DNA of 64,000 bases. It comes from Apostichopus japonicus. Its lineage: Eukaryota; Echinodermata; Holothuroidea; Aspidochirotida; Stichopodidae. The notes under the pieces are model-generated. The model had not been told where the DNA came from and searched no databases. It worked only from the letters and a program-made list of their open reading frames with translations. Shown one piece after another: positions 2,125 through 63,576 of the stretch. Position 1 is the first letter of the stretch. Every line of letters starts with the position of its first letter. Location: the NCBI RefSeq assembly GCF_037975245.1, contig NC_092567.1, forward strand, positions 24,916,876-24,980,875, read 5' to 3'. Made by a program: the position numbers and the translations under genes.

Positions 2125-2186
2125 CTTCTGATACATAGGCGTACGAGGCGGGGGGGGGCAGGGGGGGCAGACTGCCCCCCAAATTT

Positions 2187-2244
2187 CCAGAGGACAAGAA
2201 ATTCGGACAAAAGTCCTGAAAAATTCGGGCAGCCTAAGAGGCGG

Positions 2245-2311
<67 letters not shown>

Positions 2312-2375
2312 TTTTTTTCTCCTCTTAGGCTGCCCGAATTTTTCAGGACTTTTGCCCGAATTTCTTGTCCTCTGG
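2187..2375. repeat. Fold-back repeat around a (TA)n microsatellite
   Basis: Two arms of about 58 bases (2187-2244 and 2318-2375) are inverted copies with a single clear mismatch. They flank a (TA)n run at about 2248-2309. Transcribed or single-stranded, this would form a long hairpin. The outer flanks are rich in G and C homopolymers. It has no coding content; open frames across it are translations of the repeat. Confidence 0.85.
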
Positions 2376-2574
2376 ATATATATATATAAATATGCAGTAG
2401 CTTGCCCGAATCTTTTTCAAATTTTTGCCCGACAATTCCATGATTTTCTTTATTTAGCATCATGATGACCGAATATTTCCGAGTAACACCACCGTAAGCG
2501 CAGTTCATCTGGGCTACCATGCTTTTTGAAATCAATTTTTTTTTTTAAACTAGTCAATTGTATACCTGGACCAT

Positions 2575-3219
2575 GGGCGGCGGAACCGGGGGCACAGGGG
2601 GCACGTGCCCCCCACTTTTCCTCAGGTTAAAATTGTGCCTTTTTTCTACATAAAAATTGAGGTGCCTCAAGTTAGCAAGAGGCCAGGGAACCAGAATGAA
2701 CACTCGGGAAGGGCCGTTTCCGGCCATCTGAGGGCTTTGTAAATCCAAAAATATTCTAGTACGCTCCACGCCAACCGATGGTGGCGCTCCGCTCAGATAG
2801 TCGTGCATACAACTTTGCAAATCCTGGCTAAGCCCGTGACTTTTAATGAATTTCTGTGGGTCAAACTCAAAGCTATTTCGAATGGAAAAGATTTGTTTAG
2901 ATATTAACAAAAAAAACTCTAATTCGGAAGATTCCTACATTAGCAACTAGCATGATTTCACCTCATTTTGTCTCAAAAGAAAACTTGTTCATTGTTTCCC
3001 AATTTGTGCATTGGATATTGCAGTGCTAGTATGCATATTTTCCTTTGGGGGGGGGGGGGGCGTTGATGGAGTGATGTGTTTACACAAATAAGATAATACA
3101 ATAAGAGTTATAAGGGGTACTAAATATAAGGCTGCATCAGTCCAATCGAATATCTGCAAAGTGCCCTTTGATGTCGGTGCCCCCCCCCCCCCCCAAGATT
3201 AAAAGTGCTTCCGCCGCCC
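2575..3219. mobile_element. Possible small inverted-repeat transposon with hAT-related fragment inside
   Basis: The left end GGGCGGCGGAA (2575-2585) is mirrored by TTCCGCCGCCC at 3209-3219, with imperfect similarity continuing outward. No convincing target-site duplication is visible. Between about 2685 and 2835 lies a reverse-oriented segment (with GGTGGCGCTCCGCT) related to the interspersed element also seen near 3610-3780, 30734-31069 and 63188-63568. No transposase is encoded. Confidence 0.35.
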
Positions 3220-3609
3220 TTGACCTGGACATCCCCAACATGAGTGTATATAAGAAACGTATTCTTGTTCATGGACGGTGGGGGGGGGGGATGCCTACAA
3301 GCCTAGAAGTACAGGTTTATCATATTCTTTGTTATATTTTATACTTTTTTGTGAGACAAATTGCAGTCTCACCCGACACAGCGACATTATCCCGCCTACG
3401 TGTCGTTGAACAATGTATGTTTTTCTGGAGGTAGCTGAGTACTGTGTTAAAATAATAAATAAGGTAACTAAATAGGAGCTTAAAAAATATACTGTCCCAT
3501 TTTTCCCCTTCAAAGTGATGTTACCATTTTTTCTTCTTCTAATTTACCAAATTTTTGGGGAAGTGTAAATTTCTAAAACGTGAGATTATAAAATAAAGAA
3601 TGTTTAGAT

Positions 3610-3790
3610 GCAACTTGCAAGGCCTCAGAAGTGCCGTTTCCGGCAATCTGAGAGGCATTGTGTGCCAAAAATTTTCGTGTACGCTACGCGCCAACCGATG
3701 GTGGCGCTCCGCTTAGATAGTGTCACGGGAACTTTCGGGCACAAAAAGTTCTGCCCCCCCAAACTGAAATGGTCCCGTACGCCTTTGTTC
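3610..3790 (-). mobile_element. Diverged fragment of the hAT-type interspersed element
   Basis: The stretch containing GTGCCGTTTCCGGCAATCTG and GGTGGCGCTCCGCTTAGATA is the reverse complement of the body of the elements at 30734-31069 and 63188-63568, with many substitutions. The terminal CAGTGGC is not visible here, so this is an old or truncated copy. Confidence 0.6.
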
Positions 3791-26859: not shown

Positions 26860-29800
26860 ATAGGAACCCGTCTCCACCGTCCGAAGAGTTTGCCAATGGA
26901 AACGGAGAGTTATTAAGAGGTGACAGTATCGGTGACACGGTATTCAGTAAACATTGGGTCTTCACTTCCCTTATGACGCTGCTAAAGGTAAGATCAAGTG
27001 TTGCAAAATCAATTATACTAGTGTCACAGCTCGGTGTGTGAACAAGAAATAAGGACATGAACAAGTAGTTGAATTAAATGGTATATTAGATCTTCAACTG
27101 GCTAGATATCTACGGAGTACAGTGAGTGTGTCAGGGGATAGTAAGCTTGAGAGAACCGTGCTTACCATGGCTCCTACAGGTTGAATCACACTGAATACAA
27201 TTGGTGAAAGTTACATATATACTGTACTCTTTTACAATGGATGATAGAGGATGGGACAGGAAGTTACTCTGTCCACATATTTACTGTACCTTACTTCTTC
27301 AACAGAGGTTAAGCTACTGAGAAAATGACCACACATAGAGTATTAATTCTCATGTACTTTTCCTAAAAGGTGCATTGTTTTATGAATGCTTGAACTGTAA
27401 CTTTGAGACTGCTTCATTAACTTTCAAAGCTGTTTCTTTTTGTAATTTCAAAAGTGTTTCCTCTTTATAATTTCAAAGGCTGTTGAGAATGAAGATGAAG
27501 GTAAAACTGATGGAGAAAAAGAGGCTGCAAATCTCAGTGGAATTGAAATTGATAGTGACCTGGAGAATGACCTCTGTAAGCTGTGGGATATGACTGCAAA
27601 TGAGGTAGAAGATAAATTTATATTATTTTTTATAATAGTAATTATTATTATTATTATTATTATTATTATTTATTATTATTATTATTATTACTATTTATAT
27701 TATTATTATTATTATTACTATTATTATATATTATGATTTTAATCATTATTATTATTATTATTATTATAACTTTTAAGGACTGTTTAGAACTCAGTTGGCA
27801 GATAACAGTAACCCTGTGGTCACCTGTCAGAATATTGCTCTAGTCTCTATTTGTGTACAATTAATTCCGCAGTGTTTGTTAATTGTTTATTATTCTTTAT
27901 TTTCATCAGGATGTGTCACTCTTTCTGCAAGAATGGAAATCACCAGATATGCTCCTTTCTGTGATAGCAAAAACTAATGCACCAAGAGTCACTGTAAGTT
28001 TAATAGTCTGAGGAATGAGTAGCTGTAACTAATGCACCAAGAGTCACTGTAAGTTTAATAGTCTGAGGAATGAGTAGCTGTAACTAATGCACCAAGAGTC
28101 ACTGTAAGTTTAATTGTCTGAGGAATGAGTAGCAATAACTAATGCACCAAGAGTTACAGTAAGTTTAATGGTCTGAGGAATGAGTAACAAATTTACTGCT
28201 AGGTGACTCAATACATGTGTAAAACTGCACTAGCTTTACAAAGATGCATAACACAACCTTGTTTTTATTCCTTTTGAATTATGAATTCCTTTGATTAATT
28301 ATCTAACTCAGATCTCAACTTTCTTTGCTTCTTTCACCAGGAAATATGTATGGGTATATTAGGTAACATGGTTTGCACAGGATCAATCAGCAAATCTTTG
28401 TCAGAGAACGACAACCTCGTAACTCTGACCCTCTCCATGCTGAGTGGAAGGGATCCTCCCACGTTGGTGGAGACGTGTCGATTCTTGAACACCGCCCTCT
28501 CTCACCCAGGGAGCGCTAATCGGTGGCTCACCTTCATCAAAGAGGATGAAGAGGTCTTCCAAAACCTCGCTTTTATTCTGCAAAGCTCCACAAATAGTAA
28601 GTGTATAAAGGAAGAGGGTTCCTCTCACCTTATCCCCTCATACCCACACCCAACTGCAAATCAACTTCTTCACCAATCAAAATAAGGGGGAATCCATAAA
28701 GAGAAACAGATAAAGGTATAATCATAAAGAATCCCTAAAGAATTTTCAGTGACTAGCTAGGAGGTGAAGGGAGGTGGGAGATAATGCGGGGCGGGGGGAG
28801 GGGAGAGGGACTAAGAAATATAAAAACTATATAAATACCATCCTTATGTGCATGAATATGCATGTTGACTTCCCTCATTCTTAAGCATACATATACAGCT
28901 GAAATAATTCTACAAAACATGGTCCCATCCCCCCCCCCCCCCCAAACCTTCACCAACTTTCTCTACTAATTGATATGGTTCTGGGTTATAATGATATAAT
29001 GATACCTGATTAGAAAACTGAATTTCCCTTAATTTCAGAAGAAGACATTTCTTTGTTTTGTTTTACTCCCCCTGTTCTTATCAACAGTTGACCTTTTACA
29101 TAACACTGTGGACCTTATAGACTTAATTTTGGATTCCAGTGATGAGATCACAGAGAAGTGGAGCAGTCCATCGTTAATTGATGGCTTGGTAGAAGCATTT
29201 AAACAAGCAAGGTAAAGAATAAACATCAATCATTCCTAATTCAGTTTGACCTTCATGCAATTTTCTTTTTTTATTTCAGTGACTTTGTGTTTATTTTGAA
29301 GTTGAGGGGGGGGGGCGAGGGGGTGAGGCTGGGTGTAGGGCTGAGTTAGAAGATTACTGTCAACATTTTTTAATGAGAGGAATGCAGTTTGTTCTTCTTA
29401 GTTTTAACTGGAATCTCTTAACCATCGCTAAATGGTTTTTGTTTGGTGGAAGAGGGAAGGAAATCGTGGAGCAGTGAAATATTCATAAAAGTTAAATTTG
29501 AACATTTCAACTTTTTGGAATGGGATTCAACTCAGGCTAGAAATTGAGTGCAACAACCATACACAAATAAAACCAATGTTTTGTGTTGGAAATGGAGGGG
29601 AGGGGGCATTGGGGTTGGGAGGGACTGGAGAGGGAAAGGTGAGAGTAGACAAAATATTCATAGAAGTCAAACCTAAACTTATTTGAATGGGATACAACTC
29701 AGACTAGAGATTGAATGCAACAACCATACCCATGTAAAACCAATGTCTTGTGTTGGAAAGGGAGGGAGGGGGCAGTTGAGGTTATTACAATATATCTCAG

Positions 29801-32800
29801 AATAACATCGCAACTGATGGAGACACCCTTCTAGAGTTTTTCACAAAATAACACTATTTAAACAGGTAATTAATGAATATGATTTGGCTTTTATTGTGAT
29901 TTAGTTTTACAAGATTTGATCTGCAACCATTTCATTAGTATTAATGACCGGTTGAAACCCAATTACGAAACTTCTAACTTTCTCCTCATTATTGTAGATT
30001 GTACATTGTGGATTTCACTTCATCCTTGAGTAAATTTTTTTAAGTTATAGCTCTGTGTCTTATTTCATCTCAGGTCTGAGAGGAAGAGTACTTTGTCTGT
30101 TATCTTACATACCATTCAGTTAATATCAGTCACTTCTCTTGGCATCGACTGTTTAGGTGAGTAATGTGTTTAAGTTATAGCTCTATGTCTTATTTCATAT
30201 CTGGTCTGAGTGGAAGAGTACTTTATCTGTTATCTTACATACTATTCAGTTCATATATATATATATTTATACATATAAATGAGGATTGATAGAACTTTTT
30301 TGGTAAATCGCAGATAAGACCAATAGTTTTAACCAAATATTTCTCCTAGTTAGATTAAAGAAGATACAGTTATGTGCTAATTGCCAATAGGTTTGACCAA
30401 ATATTTCTCTTAGGTGAGATTGAATGAGATGCCAACTCAAATAATTTACTACCAATATCATATTCATGTTTGATAAACCAGACTCAAGTTGTGCGACTCT
30501 TAGCAGTCCAATACTGCAATATCCTCCTTTCACACAATTTGTTGTCTGTATCTTACAGTTAAAATGAATGAAACGATCATGCCGATTCTTGCCCAGTATA
30601 TATCTGATATCTGCGAAGAAGAGGTGATTGCCATAAAAGATCAAAAGAGGGCGCTAGCATCTTCCATCATTGTTGTCAACAGTCTCTTGAGAGATGAAGA
30701 CAAAGTTAGCAAGATTCTTTTCATTGGTAAGGCCGCTTTCGACACTATCTAAGCGGAGCACCGCCACTGGCTGGCGCGGAGCGTACAAATATTTTTTGAG
30801 TAAAGATACTCCCTAGATCGCCGGAAATGACCCTTTCCAGGCCTTGCTAATTTGCAGATAAACGAAGAATAAATAGGTGTCATCGCCATTTTGTCAGAAA
30901 ATTACACGAACAAAATGTGACAAATGTCAATAGGTAGATGAGAGCGCAATAAAAAAGTCAATAATTGCGAATAAGTAAAAGTGGTAAAAAGCTGAAAAGG
31001 GCGCCAGCAGTCCATTTGAGTCCATCAGGGGGGGCATCCCCCCCTGACTGTATGGACGCTCTGCCACTGGGTAAGGCTATTTGGTAGCAGCACTCAGTGA
31101 AGTGTTTAGCAGATGTATAGTATTGTATTTTTTTTGGCATATGTTGTCCAGTTACAGAGTTCTTGACAATTCATAATCATGGACGTTAAATATAAATCTA
31201 AGAGACTGACTTCGGTCAGCTTGCGGCTTTGATAAGCCGATGATGGCTTCTCCGCAAGTTCCTGCTTGCAGGAGGATCTAAAATACATACATAGATAAAA
31301 CACATCAAATAATAATTAAACAGTTACTTGATCATTGTAACAGAACCGAAACAGTGTAAAACAAGAAGAAGAAGAAGAAGGAAACAACTTAAAAGGAACA
31401 AGCTTGACAACTCCATTACAAAAGTTGACTTTAAATACTAGAAAATAAACATGTCATTAACAAAATGGACACTAAGGAAGAGCAGGGAAGCTGTGCCTCC
31501 TGCGACGAAAGCACCCAAGAAAGATTCTGTTCCCTTCTGTAACATAACCGAGGGAAACAATAGTATGCAGGTACAACCGTTTCCCCACCCCACCCACCCC
31601 CCACCATCCTCCCTATACATAAATAGTAGGTGATTATTTAAATTTATTACCCTATCATCGAAAATTGATAACTTAATCACTACCATCAACCAATCCAAAT
31701 TAATAAGTCTCATTTGCTAAGTACTTGGTTCAAATGAAAATTTCAAATGCAGATGCTTCTTTTCCACTACTCTCAAGTGCTTTTGTTTGGTAACATTTTA
31801 AAGATGGCCAGGGGTTCAAGACAGCTGCTTTTAGTATTTTCTTTTTCTCTGTTGCAGATTCTACCTCCAAGAAACTCCTGAAAAATCTCCTCAAACTTTT
31901 CCAAGTCGCTCAGAGAGATTACAAACGAGAACTTTCACAGAACTCTGGAGCGATTTTGGATAATGATGTGGATGGAAACTCTAATAATGCTTCAAAGGAA
32001 AATGAAACTAATCCTGTAGCGGTGATAACTGGAGATTGTGAAAGTTCCCATAATGCATCAGAAGGGACAGCGGTCGACTCTACTACACAGCTTCTACTGT
32101 CATCGTTGACGTCATTTGCTCGATTGCTTCTTGATCTATCTGTACAGGTGAACATGAATGTTAGACTAAGCAACATGATCATGTATATGTGCATTGTTTT
32201 CAAACATAAAGAGCTCCACCTAATTATAATCAGTTCTTTCAGGTGTATTACTATCCACAATGTGGCCTGCGTACAAATTAAAGGGGAGGGGGGACAGGGG
32301 GGAGAGGATGTGCATGGACAGAATTTACAAATCAAAGTGTTGTTGAATGAAATGGGGTAAGGATGGTTGTTGGGGAAGTTGGTGACAATGCTTGTTGACT
32401 GCAGTTTGGCACAGCATTGTGGACATTTTCAGGACAATGTCTGACAGGAATAATCTTAAAACTACAAAGCAGAATCAAAAAGTCTCTGCTTTGTAATATA
32501 AGATTATTCCTGTCAATATGAATAATTGAAAGTCCCAAGTTTTTTGTTGCAGGGGCATGATGGTAGGGTATGAAATGGGGGGGGGGGGAGGAATACAACA
32601 TTGAGTGGAAGAACCCTATTGTTTTCTGGGAGGTCAAACGTCATTGGGGGTCATCAGAGGTCAAATTGTGGAAACATGGAAATACCATATCTCATGAAGG
32701 AAAGCTTGGAATAATTTCATATTTAGTATGTAGTTGTGACACATTGAGTTCAAGACCCTTATTACTTTTGGTGGAGATGAAAGGTCATTTGGCATTACCA

Positions 32801-34644: not shown

Positions 34645-37600
34645 TTTGGTTCCTTGCTTTTTGCAAAGCAAGGAACCTATGCGTTCAACTTGGCGTGTGT
34701 GTGTGTGTGCGTGTGTGTATGTGTGTGTGTGTGTATGTGACGCTTGGCTTGTGTACACGATATCTCAATAAGGAAATGATGTATCATGATGAAACTTGTT
34801 GGGTGGATAGCCCATAGTAAGAGGAAGATCCCTATTGTTTTTGGTGCCCGCAAAGGTCACCAAAGGTCAGTTAGATGCCAAAAACCAATATATTAAAAAC
34901 AGCAATAACTCCCATTGACAGGGTCTGACATGGTTGATATTTTGGGAGTAGTTGTGAATGGGGTAAGGCATCGTTTCCAAACATAACGGTAATGTGATCG
35001 AAGGTCAACAAAGGTCAATTAATGATAAAAAACTAGTATTTTTGCGATAACTTGAGAACGAAATGTCCGTTAGGGTTGGGAGTTGCTTCAATGTAATCCA
35101 ATTGTCGACCCGCACCTGGGTGACCCTTGACCTCAATTTGACCTTTGGTGACCTTTACGTGTTTTGGGGGATTTTTACAGTTTTGATGCTATTTTCAGAT
35201 GTCAAAGGTACCTTCTGAACATAAATGTCAATAGGTTGACCCCGTGTGACCTTTATGTGCGAAGTTATATGGGGTCAAAGTTTTTCGGTCGGAGTTAGGA
35301 TGGTTGTACAGACTTGTCGTTTTGTTTTTTGGAATCAGGAGATTAAACTACATCTGAAACCAAGGTCAAAAGGTCAAAGGTCACATTAGAAAAAATGTGC
35401 TTATTTTGGGAGGAAACGAGCAAAAAAGAAAATGTTTGGTTTTGATGCTAGATTTGGATACCAAAGGTACCTTCCGATCAAAAATGTCAATGGGTTGACA
35501 CCCGTGTGACCTTCGTGTGCGAAGTTATACGAGGTCAAAGTTAATTTTCAGACATTTAATGCAATAACTCCCAGTTCCAGGGTGTGACGTGGTTGATATT
35601 TTTGGACAAGTTGCAAATGGTATAGGGGAATATTTTCAAACTTAACGGTCATGTGATCCGAGGTCACCAAAGGTCAATTAATGTTAAAAAACTAGTATTT
35701 TGGGAGGAGAAAATGGGCAAAGAAAAAAATGTTTGAATTTGTATAGTTTGATGCTCTATTTAGGTCTCACCGATCAAAAATGTCAATAAGTTGACCCAAG
35801 GTGACCTTTGTATGTTAAGTTATATGAGGTCAAAGTTAATTTTCAGACATTTAGTGTAATAACTCCCAGTGCCAAGGTATTACACGTTGATATTTTGGGA
35901 CAAGTTGCAAATGGTATAGGGGAATATTTTCAAACTTAACGGTCATGTGATCCGAGGTCACTAAAGGTCAATTAATGATAAAAAACTAGTATTTTTGCGA
36001 TAACTTGAGAACAAATTGTCCGTTAGGGTTGGGTGTTGCTTCAATGTAATCCAATTGTCAACCCGCATCTGGGTGACCCTTGACCTCAATTTGACCTCTG
36101 GTGACCTTTTTGTGTTTTGTGGATTTTTACAGTTTCGATGCTATTTTCAGATGTTAAAGGTACCTTCTGATCATAAATGTCAATGGGTTGACCCCCGTGT
36201 GACCTTTGTGTGCGAAGTTATACGAGGTCAAAGTTAATTTTCAGACATTTAATGCAATAACTCCCAGTTCCAAGGTGTGACACAGTTGATATTTTTGGAG
36301 TAGTTGCAAATGGTATAGGGTAATATTTTCAAACTTAACGGTCATGTGATCCAAGGTCACCAAAGGTCAATTAATGTTAAAAAACTAGTATTTTTGCGAT
36401 AACTTGAGAACGAATTGTCAGTTAGGGTTGGGAGTTGCTTCTACGTAATCCAATTGTCCACCCACATCTGGGTGACCCTTGACCTCAATTTGACCTCTGG
36501 TGACCTTTTTGTGTTTTGTGGATTTTTACAGTTTCGATGCTATTTTCAGGTGTTAAAGGTACCTTCTGATCATAAATGTCAATGGGTTGACCCCCGTGTG
36601 ACCTTTGTGTGCGAAGTTATACAAGGTCAAAGTTAATTTTCAGACATTTAATGCAATGACTCCCAGTTCCAAGGTGTGACACGGTTGATACTTTTGGAGT
36701 AGTTGCAAATGGTATAGGGTAATATTTTCAAACTTAACGGTCATGTGATCCAAGGTCACCAAAGGTCAATTAATGATAAAAAACTAGTATTTTTGCGATA
36801 ACTTGAGAACGAATTGTCCGTTAGGGTTGGGAGTTGCTTCTACGTAATCCAATTGTCCACCCACATCTGGGTGAACCTTGACCTCAATTTGACCTCTGGT
36901 GAACTTTTCGTGTTTTGGGGATTTTTACAGTTTCGATGCTATTTTCAGATGTTAAAGGTACCTTCTGATCATAAATGTCAATAGGTTGACCCCTGGATGA
37001 GCTTTGTGTGTGAAGTTATAGGAGGTCAAAGTTAATGTTCAGACATTTCATGCAATAACTCCCAGTGCCAAGGTGTGACAAGGTTGATTTTTTTGGACAA
37101 GTTGCGAATGGTATAGGGGAATATTTTCAAACTTAGCGGTCATGTGATCCAAGGTCACCAAAGGTCAGCTAATGTTAAAAAACTAGTATTTTAGGGGGAG
37201 AAAATGGGCAAAGAAAACATGTTTGAATTTTTACAGTTTTGATGCTCCGTTTAGGTCTCACCGATCAAAAATGTCAATTGGTTGACCTACGGGTGACCTT
37301 TGTGTGTGAAGTTATGTATACAAGTTCAAAGTTAATTTTCAGACATTTAATGCAATTAAATCCCAATGCCAAGGTGTGACACGGTTGATAATTTGGGACA
37401 AGTTGTGAATGGGGTGTTGGAACATTTTCAAACTTAAAGGTCATGTCATCTGTGGTCACCAATGTTATCATATCTGTTGACCCGCTTGTAGGTGACCTTA
37501 TACTTCTTACATTTTCGACGCCATATTTAGATCTCAAAAGTGCCTTTTGATCAAAAATCCGATCACATTTTGTGATCACAAAAGTGTTGGCTATAGTGTT

Positions 37601-61700: not shown

Positions 61701-63129
61701 CATAGCAGCATACTGCAGTTACAGGAATACCCAGTTGCTAAGGTAAACTGCAAGAGCTTTATAATAAAAATAATGATAATATTCGATTTTTATATAGTGC
61801 TTTATACCAGCAATAGGTCTCAAAGCACTCTACAGACGTTATATTACCCCTGGTCAATGATAACCTGTCCTAGAGACAATCCCTCCAGGTGGCTGGAGTT
61901 ATATACTGCACCCAATGACATCTTCCTTTACAGGTACCTATTTAACCCCTGGGTGGAGAGAGGCAGTTGAGATAAAGCATCTTGCCCAAGGACACAACGT
62001 AATAAACTAGGCAGGAATCAAACCAGCGATCCTTGGATCACAAGTCTGACGCCTTAGCCAATTGGCCACCACGTTCTCTGAGAGCTTCATCAAGTTCCTT
62101 CACTTCTCTCTTACCTGTCTGCAGTCTACTTATGCACTTTCATTATTTTCTAGACCTCCTTTCTGATAACTAACTGTTTTTCAGTTTTAAAACAATAAAA
62201 TTAACATTCCTTGCTATACAATACAAATCTTTGCTCGTTGAAAATCAGTTTGTGATTCTTTCATAGTTAGATTCCATTAGACCTTGGTCTTTACCTTAAT
62301 GTATTGATAAATCATGAACAGGAACCTGTCTGAGAAATTATTATGGACAGCAATGAAATTAGTTGTTAGAGTGGAATACAGGCCTGTCGCATGAAGAATG
62401 CCACGTACTGAGCTACTAAACTCTTAGTTATTGATGAATCCTTTATATTTAACTATGTTGTTGCCAGGGGTGACAGTGTTTAAAAACTGATGGCATCCCA
62501 GTTTCATTCAAGATAGGTTAGAGGTGTCAAGAAAAATTGGCCATTTTGTATATAATATAAAATCAAAATCAACAAAATACTAGAAAAGTTAAACACATTT
62601 GGTAAGAGAATGTGTAAATGTAAGTTGGCCTGACATTCCGATGCTAGCAGGATCTTCTTCAAAGGCTAAATGACAAGTAACAGTAACAGAAGGGACAAAA
62701 ACACGCACAGAATACAGACAGGTTAATGAGCTTATTAACCAGTCTGTATTCTGTGCGTGTTTTTGTCCCTTCTGTTACTGTTACTTGTCATTTGGCTTTT
62801 GATCGAACTTACTTTTACACATTCTCTTACACAGGCTCTCTAGTGGATAAGCAGTTTGCTAACAGTTTTATTTTATTTTGATTATTACATTTGGTAAGAG
62901 CAAGAAAACAGGCATTGTTGGTAGGACTGAAACGTCATTGCGATTGATAAACTGATGTATCATGCAAAAACTTTTACAACCATCTTGACCATTCTGTTCA
63001 ACTTTCTTCTTCCTATTTGATATATATTTCTTTCTTTCTATTTTATTTAAGAGTTGCTTGATAAGCTTTGCTCTAAGCTGGTTTCAACATTCTCAAGAAG
63101 ATTTACTGAGTGCTTACCTAGACGTCTTG
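58751..63129 (+). CDS. CCR4/Nocturnin/Angel-type EEP nuclease, 5 exons, runs off right edge
   Basis: Coding exons: 58751-58975, 59698-59874, 60757-60933, 61575-61742 and 63052-63129, all phase 0, giving 275 residues so far. The start ATG at 58751 is preferred over 58739 because of its context CAACAATGGCT. Endonuclease/exonuclease/phosphatase motifs appear in order: VSYNILAE (Asn for Mg), IICLQEVE (catalytic Glu), MNIHLLWK and ILCGDFNHTP (Asp/Asn). The final Asp-His motif is expected beyond the window. The family removes poly(A) tails or cleaves nucleotide phosphodiester bonds. Angel-like is my best guess, but Nocturnin, PDE12 or CNOT6 relationships cannot be excluded. The donor after exon 3 (CAG|GTTTTT) is weak. 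Confidence 0.85.
61257..61560 (-). repeat. Degraded tRNA-SINE copy
   Basis: Reverse complement of the body of the SINE at 45129: CATTGGTAAC, CACCAAAGTGTGCACA, GGGGACTTCCCATA and CCTTGCCCAAGGACACAA all match in order, with many substitutions. It ends at the acceptor of nuclease exon 61575. Confidence 0.75.
61765..62085 (-). repeat. tRNA-derived SINE, minus orientation
   Basis: From an AT-rich tail (AATAATGATAATATTCG) through TATAGTGCTTTATA, CTTGCCCAAGGACACAAC and a tRNA-like head (GGAATCAAACCAGCGATCC with TTGGCCACCA). It is related to but distinct from the copy at 45129. Confidence 0.75.
62560..62900 (-). mobile_element. Penelope-like terminal fragment, minus orientation, with palindrome
   Basis: Read on the minus strand it carries CTTTGAAGAAGATCCTGCTA followed by GCATCGGAATGTCAGGCCAA, a diverged copy of the hammerhead-like region at 41659-41689. 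It is interrupted or continued by a near-perfect palindrome at 62661-62800. The flank GATAAGCAGTTTGCTAACAG matches the inverse of 41608-41628. Confidence 0.6.
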
Positions 63130-63187
63130 GTGAGTCCACTATCAAATAAACAACCCTTGACATACAGCAAGAAAGGTAGCTGAGAGG

Positions 63188-63568
63188 CAGTGGCAGAGCT
63201 AGGGGTATTGGTCAGGAGGGGCGAGAATGGTCTGTAGGGGTGCTTTCGACACTATCTAAGCGGAGCGCCACCACAGGTTGGCGCGTAGCGTACAGAAATT
63301 TTTTGAGTCAAGATACTCCCTAGATAGCCGGAAATTACCCTTTCCGGGCCTGGCTAATTTGCAGATAAACGAAGAATAAATAGGTGTCATCGCCAAATGA
63401 CACCAAAAAACTGTGACAAATGTCAATAGGTAGATGAGAGCGCAATAAAAAAGTCAATAATCGCGAATAAGTAAATAGTGGTAAAGAGCTGAAAAGGGCG
63501 CCAGCAGTCCACTTGAGTCCGTCAGGGGGGCATCCGCCCCCCCTGACTGTATGGACGCTCCGCCACTG
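63188..63568 (+). mobile_element. hAT-type MITE with intact ends
   Basis: A 381-bp element with terminal inverted repeats CAGTGGCAGAGC and (reverse complement of the right end) CAGTGGCGGAGC. It is flanked by the perfect 8-base duplication CTGAGAGG (63180-63187 and 63569-63576). Both are hallmarks of hAT elements. No transposase. It lies in the intron after the last visible nuclease exon and is the best-preserved copy in the window. Confidence 0.9.
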
Positions 63569-63576
63569 CTGAGAGG

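Follow-up and report, generated by a model that had tools for sequence, protein, structure and literature searches.

As read from the sequence, a short hAT-type MITE is inserted at an exon-intron border of an Apostichopus japonicus gene, putatively SAAL1, where it is bounded by two copies of the 8-bp target-site duplication GGTAAGGC and now belongs to the intron. The analysis covered a window of 64,000 nucleotides, to which all positions given here refer. An insertion that spans a splice donor is an ordinary outcome for a short and common element, and the only individual feature of this locus is the loss of the element's left end. Taken jointly, the insertion of the MITE, the duplication of GGTAAGGC and a left-end loss specific to this locus are highly probable. 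The features of the locus are as follows.

30559-30726, plus strand: exon (exon 8 of SAAL1 in the initial annotation), ending in phase 1 as ATT G/GTAAGG, with an open frame and AG/GT borders
30726-30733, plus strand: left copy of the target-site duplication GGTAAGGC, which holds the splice donor (GT at 30727-30728)
30734-31069, plus strand: hAT-type MITE, left-truncated, beginning at consensus base 53 of 392
30750-30752, plus strand: in-frame stop TAA that a transcript spliced from the downstream donor would contain
31025-31047, plus strand: perfect 10-bp stem with a 3-nt loop, close to the right end of the MITE
31054-31069, plus strand: right terminal inverted repeat of the MITE (minus-strand reading CAGTGGCAGAGCGTCC)
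31070-31077, plus strand: right copy of the target-site duplication GGTAAGGC, a second potential donor (GT at 31071-31072)
31858-32147, plus strand: next exon, with the acceptor AG at 31856-31857

The sequence shows that a non-autonomous hAT-type MITE of a multi-copy family, with a full length of about 392 bp, entered the exon-intron border, and that an 8-bp staggered cut doubled GGTAAGGC. The host donor thereby remained at its exon and the element became the first part of the intron, the length of which rose from 787 to 1131 nt through the insertion. The two copies of the duplication are identical at 8/8 bases, and the right one directly adjoins a hAT-type end (...GACGCTCTGCCACTG, last base 31069). 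With GGTAAGGC at both borders and a hAT-type right end, the proposal of the initial annotation, that a hAT element is bounded by an 8-bp duplication lying over the donor of the exon, is borne out. Repeats of 8-mers spaced by 344+-3 begin at only 12 of the 63192 window positions, so that even with the element set aside the GGTAAGGC pair is unlikely to have arisen by chance. A reading of the two 8-mers as a chance match, with no insertion at this place, could appeal to the fact that GGTAAGGC is present four times in the whole window; nevertheless, the right copy adjoins a family terminus, the family makes duplications of 8 bp, and matches with such a spacing are rare, which leaves this reading a negligible probability.

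The family was searched using the query 30720-31080 against the species' own genome (671.6 Mb, 35 contigs). Among 2902 first-look candidates, the best 40 were scored; one of these was the studied locus, and the other 39 were read with their flanks. In these 39 copies, a typical member starts with CAGTGGCGGAGCTAGGGG, ends with GACGCTCCGCCACTG and is about 390 bp long, the ends being of the CAGTGGC type and the duplications 8 bp long. The 8-mers at the two ends of the copies were exactly the same in 17/39 (one of them consisting of G only), differed by at most two mismatches in another 17/39 and by more in 5/39, again among the best 40 of 2902; one copy that the script placed among these last five (L020) has, by eye, TTCCCACG at both sides. 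A consensus of 392 bp was built from 33 sequences, namely the copy at 63188 together with 32 of the 39 that were read, seven of the eight with one flank in common having been dropped. Over 329 aligned bases, the copy at 30734-31069 (336 bp) has 13 differences from this consensus (4.0%; range over all rows, 1.2-4.6%).

The family is a multi-copy hAT-type MITE. Like the MITEs of the hAT group (Ac/Ds, hobo, Tam3), it has 8-bp duplications and CAGTGG...CCACTG ends, and it is short and multi-copy. At the studied locus the 8-bp duplication, the short multi-copy element and the hAT-type right end are all present; the hAT-type terminal repeat at the left, in contrast, is present in the family and absent from this copy, which thus differs from the group in having no left terminus. 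Another, full-length copy lies near the end of the window.

63180-63187, plus strand: left duplication CTGAGAGG
63188-63568, plus strand: full-length MITE copy (303 of 324 aligned bases identical)
63569-63576, plus strand: right duplication CTGAGAGG

Including this copy, three other window elements combine an exact 8-bp duplication with hAT-type ends (the copy at 63188 and two more); Markov controls for duplication-flanked elements gave none in each of eight sequences, and under a second setting one was found in one of eight. A hAT-type element at 2134-3787 (duplication TTCTGATA) hosts a nested hAT-type element at 2572-3222 (duplication ACCTGGAC), and these two contain minus-strand blocks (3724-3602 and 2801-2706, respectively) that are about 75% identical to the left inner region of the studied MITE. 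In public viral contigs, two patterns of the MITE gave no matches; the single match in public genome contigs, of about 23 bases within a bacterial contig, was judged to be due to chance.

In the initial annotation, the duplication was credited with rebuilding a splice donor that the insertion ought to have destroyed. This part could not be upheld. When an 8-bp duplication was slid over 26 offsets around the donor, one whole 9-base donor (-3 to +6) survived at 26/26 of them, in agreement with the rule that a duplication of t bases leaves any site of up to t+1 bases whole on one side. Retention of the donor is therefore automatic, and nothing was destroyed or rebuilt. For any duplication start from -2 rightward, the exon side retains the entire donor and the element becomes intron. 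More generally, a 9-base donor can be shifted or doubled by a transposon with an 8-bp duplication but never destroyed, and tolerated insertions at donors thus require no repair story.

A preferred targeting of splice donors by the family was also considered and found to be unsupported: GTAAG or GTGAG is confined to this locus within the set of 19 exact duplications to which it belongs, and the base leanings are mild (8 of the 19 have G at position 1, 9 have T at position 2 and 10 have A at position 4). Across the genome, GTRAG occurs within three bases after 69 right ends that carry the consensus terminus exactly; of the 30 that were read, 22 have one amplified flank in common, which is GATGTTGGAGAACTGGCTGAAA or a near variant of it. 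It seems that one MITE insertion, with the duplication AGTAAGGG or AGTAAGTG, was amplified within a larger repeat (flanks of L091-L119; also L060 and L070). Assuming random insertion and 170,000 introns, a number that is our own assumption, about 0.2% of insertions would have the GT of a donor inside the duplication, i.e. about five per some 2900 copies before selection; a single donor-spanning case is hence unsurprising.

As for the donor that is used, the host gene most likely still splices through the exon-side one, to judge from the coding join: when G30726 is joined to the AT at 31858, the frame is open through the next exon. The downstream donor, 344 nt away, would add 344 nt, which is not a multiple of 3, and lead to the TAA at 30750-30752, cutting the protein short; this agrees with the initial annotation, in which it was said to add element sequence with an early in-frame stop. 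The strength of the sequences gives no ground for an exon-side preference. By predicted U1 pairing, the downstream donor is a little stronger (-9.7 vs -8.5 kcal/mol); mean local accessibility is equal with 60-nt flanks (0.34 downstream and 0.35 on the exon side) and slightly favours the downstream donor with flanks of 100 and 200 nt (0.34 vs 0.29 and 0.28). A masking of the downstream donor by RNA structure was rejected: although pairing is predicted for its first bases, its mean accessibility is not clearly lower. Use of both donors, in which the downstream one would yield either a regulated isoform with a premature stop or a short cassette exon derived from the element, is consistent with the downstream donor being as strong and accessible as the exon-side one. 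When the 24 AGs in the element that leave at least 30 nt were considered as acceptors, three gave in-frame cassettes (63, 60 and 42 nt) that are open through the next exon; their pyrimidine fractions, however, are only 0.25, 0.30 and 0.60, and with such poor tracts in all three the cassette exon was rejected as a candidate. Dual use as a whole is considered unlikely.

The missing left end is the feature that sets the studied copy apart. This copy lacks consensus bases 1-52, with the duplication lying flush on base 53, as the initial annotation had recognized in describing the left terminus as lost right up to the duplication. As bases 1 and 53 of the consensus are both C, the breakpoint is uncertain by one base either way, and the exact identity at the flush junction amounts to at most one base (C). 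All of the 39 other copies read (best 40 of 2902) have left-end sequence beyond this breakpoint, although the family query itself contained no left end, so that truncated copies were not penalised and left-extended copies were not favoured. The exact junction CCGCTTTCGACACTATCTAAGCGGAG occurs at seven places in the genome, and the left terminus is found in all six others. The broader pattern HCGCTTTCGACACTATCTAAGCGGAG (H = not G) occurs at 73 places, of which 34 distinct ones were read and 39 were left unread: 30 of the 34 have the left terminus, one is the studied locus, one is a fragment in which neither end was recognised, and two, with near-identical flanks, have kept only CAGTGG ahead of the inner sequence. 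The 52-bp flush loss thus appears to be private to this locus; similarly truncated copies may occur among the unread candidates of the 2902 or at the pattern sites that were not read (39 of 73). The earlier remark that the loss needs explaining is answered in part: the loss is unshared by the 39 other copies read (best 40 of 2902), and its mechanism is inferred.

Since the duplication shows that both ends took part in the insertion, the left end must have been lost during or after it. The leading candidate is a faulty repair of a transposase-made break, because a flush loss next to an intact duplication is the trace that would be expected of such a break. It may have followed either of two routes: a cut at the left end alone, after which the ends were trimmed and rejoined, or an excision in which gap repair used the right side as its template and stopped prematurely. 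One-ended cutting with rejoining and one-sided gap repair are both models for losses of this kind. In a study of Ds, the element is described as being cut at the nucleotide that flanks the insertion, and one of 17 excision footprints is described as involving a 41-bp deletion (PMC1978519). For this step alone, we put the chances of faulty repair at about even, given that just one such junction was found and that no other left-end deletion seen in the family is flush. In L036 about 21 bp are lost between G runs, and in L060 and L070, whose flanks are near-identical, most of the left end is gone and CAGTGG is kept.

These non-flush deletions indicate that the G-rich end is deletion-prone regardless of how the studied copy was truncated, and together with the single occurrence of the flush junction they make an ordinary deletion a close rival. 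In this case, replication slippage or end joining would have removed the left end independently of the transposase, as the deletions in L036, L060 and L070 would lead one to expect of such a stretch. The duplication also bears a weak similarity to the element, GTAAGG being comparable to GTAGGG at element bases 46-51, with five of eight bases in common. On the other hand, the exact identity at the junction is at most one base, for which reason a deletion driven by microhomology was rejected, and a random break would be flush with the duplication only by chance. An ordinary deletion is accordingly given a little less than an even chance. It is very improbable that the element arrived already truncated, as a member of a subfamily beginning at CGCTTTCGAC. 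Nothing more than the flush junction itself speaks for this, whereas 39/39 other copies read (best 40 of 2902) reach further left, the query did not disfavour truncated copies, and the six other CCGCTTT places have the left terminus.

With faulty break repair taken again as the leading candidate, a combined scenario can be drawn in which an aborted excision cut the left terminus at the duplication and locked the MITE in place between two near-equal donors, one of which gives a transcript with a premature stop, by which the output of the gene could be tuned; we regard it as quite improbable. Transposition is not expected of a hAT element with one end, and the studied copy, with one terminus left, should be immobile. 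A flush end loss of this type is a small trace of how hAT copies may become fixed in place.

The locus is simpler than the known cases in which transposons make introns, as here an existing intron was made longer. Introners are introns derived from DNA transposons in which the target duplication provides a copy of a splice site (PMC9860276); for Aureococcus introners, the same paper states that 8 bp from the duplication are added to the transcript. The studied locus is like introners in having a splice-site copy from the target duplication and unlike them in that they make new introns, whereas here an existing one was only lengthened. When the insert is removed, ATTG/GTAAGGCTATT is left, that is, a donor with an intron behind it, and the acceptor at 31857 lies outside the element, both of which argue against a new intron of the introner type. 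In maize, a Ds element in coding sequence reportedly altered splicing and gave rise to a de novo intron. This case (Giroux et al. 1994) is cited in PMC3260210. It resembles the studied locus in that a hAT element within a gene is tied to the choice of splice sites, and differs from it in that the host donor is unchanged here. The [D1,2] stwintrons are nested introns which are described as being without signs of target duplication in the set of PMC12403724. They too have additional sequence at the splice donor; in the studied locus, however, the sequence ahead of the second GT is CCACTGG, and with no AG directly ahead of the second donor there is no nested intron and no stwintron layout. Within titles and the openings of abstracts, a coverage that most subscription papers fall outside, no hAT duplication spanning a splice donor was found.

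The translation of the host gene had no Pfam match above the curated cut-off (two stretches; best E 0.0056), and its first stretch had no match in the PDB. For the exon side (30400-30733) the genome yields just one match, and positions 31078-31138 are covered by the locus alone among the best 40 of 1165 intron-side matches; in these same results, one exon-side match and the best 40 of 1165 on the intron side, no empty site (ATTGGTAAGGCTATT), paralogue or alternative haplotype was found. Further into the intron, a SINE-sized repeat of about 158 bp (31140-31297) has 39 other matches among the best 40 of 1165. Rfam gave one match on 31000-31500, far under the gathering score (19.8 vs 45 bits), and the sole match of the whole-window scan was a tRNA at 62003-62075 on the minus strand (33.1 bits vs a gathering score of 29). 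A tandem array with a 399-bp unit occupies 35772-37192 (3.6 copies, 93% matches). Another exon end of the host gene (ACT/GTAAGT at 27993/27994) lies inside a 55-bp unit that is repeated four times in tandem at 27972-28191, units 1 and 2 being identical, which results in four complete donors in succession. The first donor alone keeps the frame open into the next exon; the others reach a TGA after five extra codons. This four-donor tandem is arguably a stranger instance of a duplicated donor than the pair at 30726 and 31070.
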